Origin: Clostridia bacterium
Lineage (GTDB): Bacteria > Bacillota > Clostridia > Christensenellales > UBA1242
DNA: 41,191 bases
Direction of reading: 5' to 3'
Assembly: GCA_028708805.1 (NCBI GenBank)
Contig: JAQVYC010000009.1
Coordinates: 1-41,191 of the forward strand
Under the pieces are notes generated by a model, which saw nothing but the letters and a program-made list of their open reading frames with translations, was not told the origin of the DNA and ran no database searches. The position numbers and the translations under genes were made by a program. This document shows, piece after piece, positions 5,909-29,681 of this stretch. Numbering within the stretch: the stretch's first letter is position 1; every line of letters starts with the position of its first letter.

Positions 5909-8281
5909 CTATTTAATTAAATCTTCACTGTTTGCTTCTTCTGTGTAACCATACATATCAGAATAATAATAAGAAGCAAGTAATTTAACTCCAAACTCTT
6001 CATCTATTTCCGTTATTGCTCCTTGCTCTAAGAGTTTTTCATATTCATATGAATACAAAGAAACACTATATTTTTGCAATTCTTGTAAGATTGCAATTTT
6101 ATTTTTTAAGTCTGAGCTTTTATAATCTGCAAGTAATTTTTCAGTATTGCCATAATAAACAACTACCGCAGTTGTATTATTATCTATAACTTTAAATTTC
6201 TCGCTCGCCAAAGTAAATGCCTGACTGATAAAATGCGAATAGGTTTTATTAGTTCTGTTTTTATAATTATTAATACTTGAAAGATTATCTGAGAGCATTG
6301 AATAAATTGAATTTTGTATGTTTCCAGAAATCATTATTGGATAATCCATTTGAGTTTGTTTTTCAAAAAAGTAATATTTATAATATTGGTTTAATATTTC
6401 TTGACTTAAATAATCCGCTTCTTTGTTTTCATTAAGTATTCTCGCCGTAATTGTTTTTCCTGATTGAATATCAATTAATTTATCTAAATTTTCATTTTTT
6501 AAAGGAACCACATAAACATTTTTTTCGGTTGTTCCATCTCCGTTTCTATTACACCTTCCCGCTGACTGCACAATAGAATCTAAACCTGCCATTGCTCTAA
6601 TTACACAATCAAAAGAAATATCCACCCCAGCTTCAATAAGCTGCGTGCTTACACAAATTATTTTCTTGTTTTTATCTAATGAGCTTTTTATATCTTCAAG
6701 CGTTTTTATTCTATGTGTCGCACACATTGAAGTGCTTAAATGTGATAATTCTAAAATTCCGCTTTTGTTTTTTTCTTTTAATAATTCACATACTTGCCTT
6801 GCCTCACTCTTTTTATTTACAATAACTAAACAGTTATTATTACTTAAAACCTTTTCCCAAACAAATTGAGAAAATTCATCTATACTCATTTGTTTCTCTG
6901 CAATAATTTTTGTTCTCTTTAAATCTGTAAATTCTTTTTCAAAGTTTTCAATTAAGTTAGGCTCAGGAGATAATAATAAATTTTTCTTTTTTGTTTGACT
7001 AAGAAGAGGTTGGGTGGCCGAGCATAATAAGATTGTTGCATTCATTATTTTAGATAAAAAACTAACAACTTCATTAAACAAATGAATAGTTTTGATAGGC
7101 AAAGATTGAATTTCATCAAAAATAATTACACTGTTACTCATACTATGAAATTTTCTAAGATTACTTGCTTTCGAAGACATAACAGTTTCTAAAAATTGCA
7201 CCATTGTTGTTATAATGATGGGGTTATCCCAACGAGAATCAGCCAACTTTTTAAGATTCTTCCCTTCATCATCATTAGGAATAACAATGTTTGAATGATG
7301 TTCAAGAATTATATCGCTGTTTGGTTCTAGTTCAAGAATGTTTCGAATATTCTTTGCTGTTTGTTCAATAATTGAAAGATAAGGAATTACATAAATAATT
7401 CTTTTCTTATGATGATGTAAGGCAAATCTTAACGAAGATAAAGTTTTCCCTCCGCCTGTTGGAACTGATAATAAATATATCCCTGTATTTCTTTTTGCTG
7501 CATTTTTACATTTTTCAGATATCAATGAACGAATTTTTGAAATTTTGTTATTAATATTAAATTTTCCAATATTTTTTTCAAAAGTTTCAATTAGATTGCT
7601 CCAATTAAATATTTTTTGACTTGATTTTATATCTTCTTGAATATCAAAAAAATATGCATCTAATCTATCTGCATCAATCAAACAAGAATAGATATATTTA
7701 ATTAAAAGCCCAAGTGCAAATTTTTTAGATGCATATGATTTATATGTTTTACCTATATGGTTAATTATCTCAGACATCTCTTTTTGTGCATTTATAAAAA
7801 GCCTATCAAGTTCTGTTTTATCTAAAATCAACTTTGAATTATTTTTTATATTTAAATAGTCATATTCCGAATTTATCGCCAAGTTTAATTTATCAAAAAA
7901 AATTTTATCACTATCAGGACTAATAAGGTCGCTTAAACTTCCATGATGTCCTGAAATTACAATTTCAAGTATTTCTTTAATAAGACTTGCTAACTGATTT
8001 TTCGAATCAAAAATATCATTAACTAAAAAAGCACCCTGAATAGAATGTTTAACCGTACCTCTTTTTTTATCGCCATTATTTAAGTAAGTTTGAAATTCAT
8101 AGGATGCTTTTCCAATATCATGCAAAGAGCCTGCAAGACTTATTAAATTTGGAGCAATTGAAGCAAAACCACTAGCCATTTTGGAAACATTTTGCAAATG
8201 TACATTTAGTTGCTGAAAATTGCCCTTTTCATCTTTTCGAGCTTTAAAGTAAGTATTCCTTTTATCTTTTGCAAACCTCAT
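5909..8281 (-). CDS. cas3: CRISPR-associated helicase/nuclease Cas3 (HD + SF2 helicase)
   Basis: 790 aa; HD motif ‘SLHDIGKASYEFQ’, GHHGSL, Walker A SVPTGGGKT, DEIQ box, STQLIEAGVDISF and GRCNRNG motifs. Confidence 0.96.
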   Translation of the reverse strand: MRFAKDKRNTYFKARKDEKGNFQQLNVHLQNVSKMASGFASIAPNLISLAGSLHDIGKASYEFQTYLNNGDKKRGTVKHSIQGAFLVNDIFDSKNQLASLIKEILEIVISGHHGSLSDLISPDSDKIFFDKLNLAINSEYDYLNIKNNSKLILDKTELDRLFINAQKEMSEIINHIGKTYKSYASKKFALGLLIKYIYSCLIDADRLDAYFFDIQEDIKSSQKIFNWSNLIETFEKNIGKFNINNKISKIRSLISEKCKNAAKRNTGIYLLSVPTGGGKTLSSLRFALHHHKKRIIYVIPYLSIIEQTAKNIRNILELEPNSDIILEHHSNIVIPNDDEGKNLKKLADSRWDNPIIITTMVQFLETVMSSKASNLRKFHSMSNSVIIFDEIQSLPIKTIHLFNEVVSFLSKIMNATILLCSATQPLLSQTKKKNLLLSPEPNLIENFEKEFTDLKRTKIIAEKQMSIDEFSQFVWEKVLSNNNCLVIVNKKSEARQVCELLKEKNKSGILELSHLSTSMCATHRIKTLEDIKSSLDKNKKIICVSTQLIEAGVDISFDCVIRAMAGLDSIVQSAGRCNRNGDGTTEKNVYVVPLKNENLDKLIDIQSGKTITARILNENKEADYLSQEILNQYYKYYFFEKQTQMDYPIMISGNIQNSIYSMLSDNLSSINNYKNRTNKTYSHFISQAFTLASEKFKVIDNNTTAVVVYYGNTEKLLADYKSSDLKNKIAILQELQKYSVSLYSYEYEKLLEQGAITEIDEEFGVKLLASYYYSDMYGYTEEANSEDLIK

Positions 8282-12454: not shown

Positions 12455-12627
12455 AAAATTATCTCCTTCGGCTTTATTATATTCTTATTTATGATAACAA
12501 TAATTTTTTTGACACTAAATTTTTCTAATTAAAATAAAACAAAAAAACATTCATTCATCATCTTAAAATTTAAGCTAGGACAAAAATCTAACAAAGTCAA
12601 CTTTATAATTTTAACTTTATATAAAAT

Positions 12628-12652
12628 AAAATCAGAGATTAACTCTGATTTT
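12628..12652. terminator. Intrinsic terminator downstream of rubrerythrin
   Basis: AAATCAGAG-ATTAA-CTCTGATTT flanked by A/T-rich runs. Confidence 0.75.
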
Positions 12653-12678
12653 ATTATTTAAAACTATTAAATTAAAGT

Positions 12679-13218
12679 TTAATATTTATTGTTTTCTATC
12701 TCAAAATATGCTTGCGGGTGGTCACAGACAGGACAAATTTCAGGAGCAGAATTTCCAACATGAAGATGCCCACAATTGCGACATTTCCATGTAACAATCT
12801 TATCTGCTTTAAATAATTTACTCTCTTTTACAGCCTTAGCAAAGGCTAAAAATCTCTTTTCGTGTTCATTTTCAATTTTCGCTATACCTTCAAAAAGCTC
12901 TGCATATTTATCAAACCCTTCCTCTTTCGCTTCTTTTGCCATTCTAGCATACATTTCGGTATATTCGCTTTTTTCGCCAGCAGCAGCATCTAAAAGATTT
13001 GAATAAGTTTCTTTGATTTCACCACCATTTAAAATTTTAAACCAAATTTTAGCATGCTCTTTTTCATTGTTAGCGGTTTCTTCAAAGATGGCAGCAATTT
13101 GCTCATAACCATCCTTTTTTGCTTTGGAAGCATAAAAAGAATATTTATTCCTTGCCTGACTTTCCCCTGCAAATGCTTCCCATAAGTTTTTTTCTGTTTT
13201 AGTACCTTTTATTTCCAT
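12679..13218 (-). CDS. Rubrerythrin
   Basis: MEIKGTKTEKNLWEAFAGESQARNKYSFYASKAKKDGYEQIAAIFEETANNEKEHAK… plus C-terminal rubredoxin-like CRNCG…CPVCDHPQAYFE; Shine-Dalgarno AGGAG before the ATG at 13218. Confidence 0.96.
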   Translation of the reverse strand: MEIKGTKTEKNLWEAFAGESQARNKYSFYASKAKKDGYEQIAAIFEETANNEKEHAKIWFKILNGGEIKETYSNLLDAAAGEKSEYTEMYARMAKEAKEEGFDKYAELFEGIAKIENEHEKRFLAFAKAVKESKLFKADKIVTWKCRNCGHLHVGNSAPEICPVCDHPQAYFEIENNKY

Positions 13219-26054: not shown

Positions 26055-26117
26055 TTTCTATTTATACAGCATTTGTTTAGTTTGATTTTAAAAATTTGAT
26101 TTATTTAAGAAGATAGT

Positions 26118-26201
26118 CTGGTGAAATGAAGTTCAAAAAGTGATTTTCGCAAGTGCAAAACACTTGCATTTAGTTGCTTGTAAACTTTAAATTCGCCAGC
26201 C
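26118..26201 (-). repeat. Diverged copy of cloverleaf palindromic element (E2)
   Basis: Reverse complement aligns to 28609-28696 with the same 34-nt spacing from GGCTG to GCAAGTGTTTTxCACTTGC, then AAATCACTTT; outer CTGGTGAA/TTCGCCAG stem kept. Confidence 0.75.
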
Positions 26202-26511
26202 TTTTTATTTTTCTTAGCACATTGGTTTTTCGTCAACTTTTTATCTGCTGTTTTTTAATGATTTATTTTCTATAAACTTTTATTTATGATGTATTTATTT
26301 TTTAAAATGAACCAACTGCACTACTACTCGTAATTTATTATATTTAATATTCTACCAACCTAACTGCTAGTATTTTTTTTCTTTATTTCTTATTTTATTT
26401 TTTTAAGTAACTCATTAACCAAATTAATTACAAAATTTTAAAACAAATGCAATTCATTGTTTTATCTAAAATTTAGTGAATTAGCTATTCTAAAAGATGC
26501 TTTATTTCAAG

Positions 26512-27733: not shown

Positions 27734-28537
27734 TCAAGACTTGTCTAATTGTTGATATAATTGTCGAAGTTGTAAAATATCTAGAACTTCCGCCCGCACT
27801 AACAGAGAAATATTTAGTTTATTAAAGGCTTTTTCAACCTCTAATTTATTATATTTTATATTTATTAAATTGTTGATTAAAGTTTTTCTTTTCATTGCAA
27901 AACAACCTTTAATAAATCTTGTAAAATTTTCGTCATAAATGATATCAGGCTTTCGTTCTAACCTTAAAATCGCAGAATCAACCTTAGGTCGAGGACGAAA
28001 CATTGTTTTTTTCACAATTCTTGTTATTTTGGCATTGCAATAATAACTAATCATTGCACTTAAAAGACCGTAGTTATCCTCGTTTGGTCTTGCTACTATC
28101 TTTTCCGCAACTTCTTTTTGCACCATAATTGTTAATGTTTCAACCTTGTTTGTTTGCTCTAAAAATTTAAAAATAAGGGGTGTTGTTATATAATAAGGAA
28201 GGTTTGCTATTATGTGGAATGAACCTGAAAAGTCGGTTTCTATTTCCTGCATGTGTTTCTTTAAAATGTCTGCCATTATTATCTTGACATTTTTTACAGA
28301 TGAAAACTTTTCTTGTAATATTTCTGTTAGCTTTTTATCTATTTCGTAAGCAACAACATTTTTAGCCTTTTTTGAAATTGCTTGCGTTAAAGTACCAGCC
28401 CCTGCGCCTATTTCTAACACTTCGTCGTTTTCACCAATTCCGCTGTCTGATACTATTGCATTTAAAAGATTAGTATCGGATATAAAATTTTGACCGAATT
28501 TTTTATTGAATTTAATATCTTTGAAACTCATTTTCAC
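27734..28537 (-). CDS. rsmA: 16S rRNA (adenine1518-N6/1519-N6)-dimethyltransferase RsmA/KsgA
   Basis: KKFGQNFISDTNLL, VLEIGAGAGTLT, ANLPYYITTPLIFK, FRPRPKVDSAI motifs. Confidence 0.96.
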   Translation of the reverse strand: MKMSFKDIKFNKKFGQNFISDTNLLNAIVSDSGIGENDEVLEIGAGAGTLTQAISKKAKNVVAYEIDKKLTEILQEKFSSVKNVKIIMADILKKHMQEIETDFSGSFHIIANLPYYITTPLIFKFLEQTNKVETLTIMVQKEVAEKIVARPNEDNYGLLSAMISYYCNAKITRIVKKTMFRPRPKVDSAILRLERKPDIIYDENFTRFIKGCFAMKRKTLINNLINIKYNKLEVEKAFNKLNISLLVRAEVLDILQLRQLYQQLDKS

Positions 28538-28605
28538 CTTTCCATATTCTATTTTGCTAAAAAAGTTTTTTAGAAGTATAAAAAGTTTATCTAAGTAGTT
28601 AAAAT

Positions 28606-28702
28606 AAATGGCTGACGGATAAGTTTTGCGTTACAAAACTTTGGCAAGTGTTTTACACTTGCCCGGAAATCACTTTGTGATTTCCGTTCCGTCAGCCCAT
28701 TT
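28606..28702 (+). repeat. Cloverleaf palindromic element (E1): outer stem enclosing three perfect hairpins
   Basis: Outer AAATGGCTGACGGA/TCCGTCAGCCCATTT; hairpins AAGTTTTG-cgtta-CAAAACTT, GGCAAGTGT-ttt-ACACTTGCC, CGGAAATCAC-ttt-GTGATTTCCG. Confidence 0.9.
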
Positions 28703-28715
28703 AATTTTGCCTTTT

Positions 28716-29681
28716 TTATACAATCTCTTTATTTTTATCAGACTTCTTTTCTTTTGCTTCATCACAGCCTGATGCCTTTTTAACCTTTTTAAACTTCCTA
28801 TTAAATGCCAATGACCAAAGCGTCGGGGTTATAAAATAAGAAGAGAAAACACAAGCCAAAACACCTAATATTAAAGATATAGAAGCAAAACCTATGCTGT
28901 TTATCCAAATTGCTAAAATAATAAGTGCTATTATAACAGTTATACCAATTAAAGCACTTCTTTTACATTCATCTTTAATTGAGATATCAACTAATTCTTT
29001 GTTAGTCTTTTTTATAAATTGTTCATTTTTAGCATTCTTGTTGAATGTGTTTAAATTCATAAAACTGAAATATATCGAAAGCACAGCCGTGCTCATAATA
29101 ACAATTCCAAAATATTGATTTATCGGAATTCTTGCAATTAAGGTCAAAGTTGTCATTATGCCCAAATCTAAAAATGCAACTGCAATCATCGTGAAACCAG
29201 AAGTCAAATTATGCCTTGCAAACATATAAATTGCAACTGCTATAATTGATATTAAAACAGCTAAAAATGCTTTTGTAAATACCTCAGCACTAAACTCGGG
29301 TGTTGTATTTGTTTGCATAATTATAAAATTAACTTCCATTGCATCATTTTCATTATATCCAAACTTTTCAAATAAATCATTTTTTACATTTTCATTAACT
29401 GTTTCTACATCTGTAAATATCTGATATTTTATTATAGCACAAATGCCTGTTTCATTTTCACCTATGCTTGCATAACTTGCCTTTAAGTTATTTTTAGATA
29501 AAACTTCATTTATTTTTGCCATAGAATCATCAACTTCAAAATTTGTAGTATTGACTGTAACAACAGTACCACCAGTAAAATCAAAACTCTTATTGAAATT
29601 AATCGTAAAAAGCAATACAAAACCCAATATTAAAACTAAAAGAGATGCTAAACCACTTTTAAAAAATTTAACCAAGTTCAT
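28716..29681 (-). CDS. secF: Protein translocase subunit SecF
   Basis: FNKSFDFTGGTVV, six TM topology, overlaps secD. Confidence 0.93.
   Translation of the reverse strand: MNLVKFFKSGLASLLVLILGFVLLFTINFNKSFDFTGGTVVTVNTTNFEVDDSMAKINEVLSKNNLKASYASIGENETGICAIIKYQIFTDVETVNENVKNDLFEKFGYNENDAMEVNFIIMQTNTTPEFSAEVFTKAFLAVLISIIAVAIYMFARHNLTSGFTMIAVAFLDLGIMTTLTLIARIPINQYFGIVIMSTAVLSIYFSFMNLNTFNKNAKNEQFIKKTNKELVDISIKDECKRSALIGITVIIALIILAIWINSIGFASISLILGVLACVFSSYFITPTLWSLAFNRKFKKVKKASGCDEAKEKKSDKNKEIV

Follow-up and report, generated by a model that had tools for sequence, protein, structure and literature searches.

The window analysed here is a stretch of 41,191 nucleotides from a Clostridia bacterium. 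In the window, secF (28716-29681) and rsmA/ksgA (27734-28537) are both encoded on the minus strand, and the gap between them holds a perfect cloverleaf at 28610-28697, which was recognised by its fold, by parsing and by a covariance-model match and to which no strand was assigned. The outer stem of 10 bp is formed by the 5' arm GGCTGACGGA (28610-28619; family consensus CCGCCGGCGGAAG), which pairs with the 3' arm TCCGTCAGCC (28688-28697). It encloses three hairpins that stand back-to-back: hairpin 1 with 8 bp (28621-28641), hairpin 2 with 9 bp (GGCAAGTG/CACTTGCC, 28643-28663) and hairpin 3 with 10 bp (28664-28686). Between the stems, single T residues at 28620, 28642 and 28687 are left unpaired. 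In this copy the outer stem is made longer by an AT-rich extension with one bulge (total span 28601-28708), which is specific to the copy and not a feature of the family.

An earlier note, made from the sequence alone, had described this cloverleaf, and its coordinates, the hairpins of 8, 9 and 10 bp and the single T residues were confirmed. The outer stem had been given as 9 bp and extendable with one bulge; the extension exists, but the stem has 10 bp. The distance to the secF stop codon had been put at 14 nt; it is 18 nt from the end of the core and about 13 nt from the end of the extended form.

Folded as RNA, the window copy reached a minimum free energy of -54.2 kcal/mol on the plus strand and -57.7 kcal/mol on the minus strand, whereas the means of the shuffled sequences were near -20.6. 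The z-scores were -10.7 and -11.7, respectively, and none of 200 dinucleotide shuffles was equally good. When the copy was folded as DNA, z was -12.3. Folding of both strands and a comparison with Rfam had been proposed in the earlier note; the latter returned no match to the element, whether at gathering score or with E allowed up to 1. No tRNA covers the element either, as had been stated.

A decayed second copy was detected at 26112-26205 (covariance model, E=0.008; no strand assigned). It keeps the outer stem and the middle hairpin GCAAGTG/CACTTGC, and its hairpins 1 and 3 are broken; the middle hairpin and a part of a neighbouring arm are common to the decayed and the intact copy. Elsewhere in the window, an open reading frame at 31246-31683 matches Pfam DUF3792 and adjoins yajC. 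DUF3792 beside yajC is a neighbourhood associated with Firmicutes.

The repeat family and its hosts

A plain DNA search of the window's own genome (G000) returned the window copy as the only full match, plus a fragment at 26133-26167. When the search was extended to the genus, a match of 32 bases was obtained in the relative G005, and its site proved to be a second complete cloverleaf with an otherwise different sequence. With the outer stem as a pattern, 12 sites were found in G005 and single cloverleaf sites of the same plan in G001, G003 and G006; other matches to this pattern, among them one in G004 and another three in G006, were not cloverleaf-like. A scan for structure only, with an outer stem plus three hairpins as its criterion, detected 15 elements in 639 kb of fetched stretches in its first version, compared to none in three shuffled sets. 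When overlapping hairpins were allowed, the scan gave 18 GC-rich cloverleafs in the same 639 kb.

The covariance model R1, for which only two G005 elements were used, found the window element at 28606-28701 with E=2.1e-11. The model R2 was built from 34 matches on both strands and found elements in seven of the eight sampled genomes of the genus (G000 to G006) and none in G007. In G005, about 47 distinct sites were counted from 83 strand-wise R2 matches, and G000 holds one intact copy. Because seven of eight genus genomes carry such elements and G005 has about 47, the window element is a member of a dispersed, intergenic, non-coding repeat family, the existence of which is well supported. The search of the own genome and of relatives that the earlier note had proposed thus revealed a relative with about 47 dispersed copies. 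What it had named as speaking against the element, a single copy without covariation, was not found, given these copies in G005 and the strong covariation of the four stems described below.

Among larger sets, R2 matched in 5 of 197 family genomes and in 3 of 396 order genomes, G000 being one of the latter, and the only carriers outside the genus were two genomes, both of one other genus; in these searches the top 10-20 candidates per genome were scored, which lowers the sensitivity for absence. Among named relatives, a Clostridia MAG (isolate STD2_135) comes closest. Since the ends of an STD2_135 contig and of a G005 contig match at 100%, the sequences suggest that G005 is the STD2_135 assembly. 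The hosts of the family are one group of small-genome Clostridia, and the family itself is apparently undescribed; no three-hairpin cloverleaf repeat family was described in the literature searched, with most subscription papers outside reach. A DNA similarity search of phage and plasmid records gave no match, and the exact middle hairpin was absent from the GTDB genomes searched. Hairpins with GCAAGTG in the 197 family genomes were mostly coding palindromes or terminators, and among those loci that were folded, true cloverleafs appeared in G000 and G005 only. In viral contigs, the end pattern matched 120 stretches (80 listed), a second pattern matched 9 and a third none; the loci fetched for the first two contained no cloverleaf.

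Architecture and pairing of the elements

The 33 elements found in 451 kb of G005 each have exactly three hairpins. Scans of the same sequence for two, four or five hairpins detected none and a scan for one hairpin gave one match, so the common plan is well supported. The 47 distinct elements (46 of G005 and the window copy) have median values of 97 bp (84-127) for length, 0.51 for GC content, compared to about 0.30 in the window, and two for the unpaired bases at the junction. The outer stem is mostly 10-17 bp long across the family and carries the terminal consensus CCGCCGGCGGAAG on both sides, with ends of the form CCGCCGGCGGAAG...CTTCCGCCGGCGG. CCGCCGGCGGAAG has a palindromic core, which makes the ends inverted repeats and at the same time nearly direct ones. 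The middle hairpin is semi-conserved and often starts with GCAA and ends with TTGC, as in the window copy. In hairpins 1 and 3 the sequence is not fixed; their pairing is kept though their arms differ completely, and examples from G001-G004, G006 and G555 had differing arms that were paired in each case. A larger decayed palindrome with complementary flanks was considered and rejected, as the own flanks of the elements were no more complementary than swapped flanks.

Several repeats were observed near G005 elements. At L064:131-226 on contig C5, a tandem array of 25-bp units (GTTTATTGCAAGTATAACGGAATTG, 3.8 copies, 100% matches) abuts a cloverleaf that begins at 227, and its unit holds GCAAGT and CGGA, which are also words of the element. 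The cloverleaf at L097:892-1018 (contig C8) has a much longer middle hairpin carrying GCAAGGGAGCGGGC, and a similar motif, GCAAGGAGCGGG, lies to one side of two other elements (L064 at about 318-335 and L281 at about 7873-7886). Irregular short repeats such as AACGGACAAA lie beside one element (L284, about 1380-1880), and an array with a period of roughly 60 bp occupies the right flank of another (L082). Single long perfect hairpins of 18-23 bp with GC-rich segments of the CGCCG type occur at L274:8908-8956 and L281:16086-16125 and are possibly one-hairpin relatives or terminators.

The conservation of pairing was then followed in the covariance-model alignment, which is fitted to the structure and includes both strands of many elements. 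In this alignment, each of the 39 pairs varies on both sides, 96.1% of cells are paired compared to 53.5% after shuffling and 35-46% in slid structures, and the covariation score is 0.998 compared to 0.188 after shuffling; covariation is strong in each of the four stems. The scan for structure only, with its shuffled sets as control, is independent of the alignment fit. Among the closest copies, 136 pair changes were two-sided and 17 one-sided; this count is biased, since near-perfect stems were the criterion for choosing the elements, and the compared pairs of copies are not independent. The alignment, though it follows the structure, is less biased in this respect.

A fold of great stability on either strand, the massive covariation and the position of the majority of copies downstream of a gene end would all suit a structured RNA family, a regulatory or 3'-UTR RNA that works through the transcript. 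Against it stands the composition of the pairs. G-U accounted for 1.1% of the standard pairs in 44 distinct elements, whereas it made up 7.2% in 30 tRNAs of the same stretches (p=4e-13). The ratio of G-U to A-C mismatches was 18:11 in the elements, with no clear excess of G-U, and 46:0 in the tRNAs, the latter being less firm than the G-U share as the ARAGORN structure line may hide mismatches. Since G-U intermediates should be favoured if selection acted on RNA, and they are almost absent here, the pairing is probably kept at the level of DNA and not as RNA. The element is also about equally good on either strand, two of its three arms have no conserved sequence and no curated Rfam family matches. 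A folded RNA, one of the options of the earlier note, is therefore disfavoured, and we regard it as very unlikely.

In hairpins 1 and 3, G+T makes up 63% of the 5' arms, compared to 41% in other perfect hairpins of these genomes (p=4e-7). A model of intrastrand template switching predicts an enrichment of G-C and U-A in stems (PMC8794818), and the G+T content of the arms agrees with this asymmetry. The double substitutions with a maintained shape may accordingly be explained by template switching, because it uses one arm as the template for rewriting the other. Double changes would also arise if perfect pairing of the DNA were under selection. The template-switch maintenance of hairpins reported by Monttinen and Loytynoja (2022, PMC8794818) accounts for multi-base compensatory changes and for the G-C/U-A asymmetry, both of which are seen here; it concerns RNA genes under selection for RNA structure, whereas here an apparently mobile DNA palindrome would be maintained.

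Placement and genomic surroundings

Of the 33 elements in the G005 stretches, 31 are clearly intergenic and two overlap short, doubtful open reading frames. Most copies sit downstream of gene ends, typically 100-250 nt from genes. Convergent gaps are over-represented, with 15 of 32 scorable copies compared to 39 of 225 gaps overall, and only two copies lie in divergent gaps. The GC skew flips at the element: on average, the 150 nt before it are richer in G than in C, and the 150 nt after it richer in C than in G. In 44 of 46 copies the skew difference is of this sign (p=2e-12), and the pattern does not depend on which strand is read. Relative to element-free gaps, the shift was similar in tandem and convergent contexts, and in the two divergent copies the sign was that of the element and not that of transcription.

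The preference for convergent gaps and the more positive skew before than after the element are expected if transcripts end there. The elements could then be mobile bidirectional terminators or transcript-end stabilisers, which have spread and are kept for ending transcripts from both sides. T-runs follow the G001 copy and one L097 copy. Most copies, however, have no T-tract directly after the stem. In the window copy, the terminator scan found none after the outer stem, and its sole match was an internal hairpin with the tail AAAGTTTTGT, so that a GC-rich hairpin is present without the direct T-tract of an intrinsic (rho-independent) terminator. The typical distance of 100-250 nt from the genes also speaks against this function, and one hairpin would suffice, which leaves the number of exactly three unexplained. 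A mobile terminator had also been an option of the earlier note; we consider this explanation rather unlikely.

The same skew could be a scar of breakage. Palindromes are known break sites (PMC7999016), and an element that SbcCD or a junction resolvase cleaves in vivo could be kept by repair-coupled copying, with cytosine deamination in the resected single-stranded flanks. The sign of the skew is as expected for 3' overhangs, and the similar shift in tandem and convergent contexts and the sign in the divergent copies also fit. The transcription view, however, predicts nearly the same pattern. Ending of transcription from both sides and deamination in resected DNA would both produce the flip, and they are inseparable here because there are just two divergent copies. 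On balance, a break hotspot of this kind is unlikely.

Dispersal and probable mobility of the elements

Copies of the element are found in unrelated surroundings. Two of them are 97% identical and lie 1.2 kb apart with unrelated flanks, and further pairs of copies are 88-89% alike, also in unrelated flanks. The secF-rsmA spacing is 178 nt in the window with the element, about 9 nt in G001 and about -4 nt in G006, and in both relatives the junction is empty. Likewise, eight G000 gaps that are syntenic with element-bearing G005 gaps contain no such element; all these empty sites are syntenic and not base-exact. In one of these eight gaps (window 12455-12681), a low-GC cloverleaf-like scan match at 12599-12679 was not counted. 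It consists mainly of one strong AT-rich hairpin (z -4.8) and is probably an ordinary terminator, possibly a decayed copy. The dispersal is well supported, and it suggests transposition proper; mobility is deduced mainly from one genome, G005. Alternatively, the copies could have spread by recombination or error-prone break repair.

No obvious target-site duplication was seen around the inspected copies, including the 97% identical pair. Among the end-like sites listed in the sampled G005 stretches, no solo element end was recognised. Nor was a cassette array, as expected beside an attC-like recombination site of an integron, seen close to the elements inspected. A search for the Y1 transposase (PF01797) was negative in the G000 and G005 assemblies, which are 93% and 89% complete, respectively, and G007 has the Y1_Tnp domain and no elements. 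An IS110-type transposase was found in none of the eight genus genomes. Reverse transcriptase was rejected as the mobiliser; it was detected in G001, G002 and G005 and not in the element-bearing G000, G003, G004 and G006. In G005, it was observed at L288:238-1299 (contig C35; 353 aa, Pfam RVT_1); L287 and L289 hold it as well.

The elements are the same kind of object as REPs and REPINs moved by TnpA-REP: short, intergenic, dispersed, non-coding palindromes that can fold as single strands and are probably moved in trans as single-strand DNA, with no target-site duplication seen. Known REPs are 20-40 bp long, carry GTAG/CGTC tags, are moved by a Y1 transposase and share sequence between copies (PMC3733652, PMC3116915, PMC8266576). 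The present elements are cloverleafs of 85-125 bp, with a unit of 90 bp in place of a hairpin of 20-40 bp, have CCGCCGGC ends without a GTAG/CGTC tag at the foot of the palindrome and share mainly their shape. A REP/REPIN or IS200/IS605-derived repeat moved by a Y1 HUH transposase is already contradicted for G000 and for G005 with its about 47 copies, unless the gene lies in the missing 7-11% of the assemblies, and is highly improbable. The MITE/REP-like option of the earlier note is therefore supported in kind, as a mobile single-strand or cruciform DNA element, but not in the form of a REP or IS200-type repeat, and its interpretation is partly supported as a whole.

Bacterial MITEs and stem-loop sequence families (PMC2267715) are similar in that they have terminal inverted repeats, here the outer stem, no coding capacity and multiple dispersed intergenic copies. 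Here, no obvious target-site duplication was seen around the inspected copies, and searches for Y1 and IS110-type transposases gave no partner insertion sequence. The survey of Cozzuto et al. (2008, PMC2267715) describes hairpins that are single or double and also mentions complex structures without specifying them, and the words 'cloverleaf' and 'compensatory' are absent from its text. The element works like a REP or MITE, yet it fails the tested REP definitions. Yeast mitochondrial GC clusters, double-hairpin elements and the repetitive hairpin-forming elements of sponge mitochondria are also GC-rich palindromes that invade AT-rich genomes between their genes, but these are organellar; the sponge repeats are described as structurally and compositionally divergent (PMC4478555, PMC2800124).

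Taken together, the elements probably form a non-autonomous family of mobile DNA palindromes that spread as folded DNA and are perfected by template switching during replication. Each palindrome of about 85-125 bp would fold into a four-way junction with the outer stem and three hairpins per strand. The substrate for spreading may be the extruded DNA cloverleaf or a single-stranded cloverleaf at replication forks. A putative enzyme would move the copies in trans into intergenic DNA, probably recognising the palindromic ends (CCGCCGGCGGAAG...CTTCCGCCGGCGG) and the semi-conserved middle hairpin, whereas hairpins 1 and 3 would need pairing only. Intrastrand template switching could rewrite one arm from the other and so renew the pairing. 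More tentatively, the DNA may be inherited and recognised mainly by its shape, a four-way junction with exactly three hairpins, which is moved by a junction-recognising enzyme and whose arms are continually rewritten by template switching in replication, with the geometry copied and the sequence lost.

If this is right, the family would be a mobile repeat conserved by DNA geometry and not by sequence. Homology searches would miss such repeats, and the DNA search with the window copy retrieved only fragments of its relatives. The fixed three-hairpin plan would point to an enzyme that reads four-way junctions, and the family would be a natural test case for how template switching can give rise to perfect covariation. 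It is also a warning that strong covariation alone is no proof of a functional RNA, and the lack of G-U pairs can separate DNA from RNA structure.
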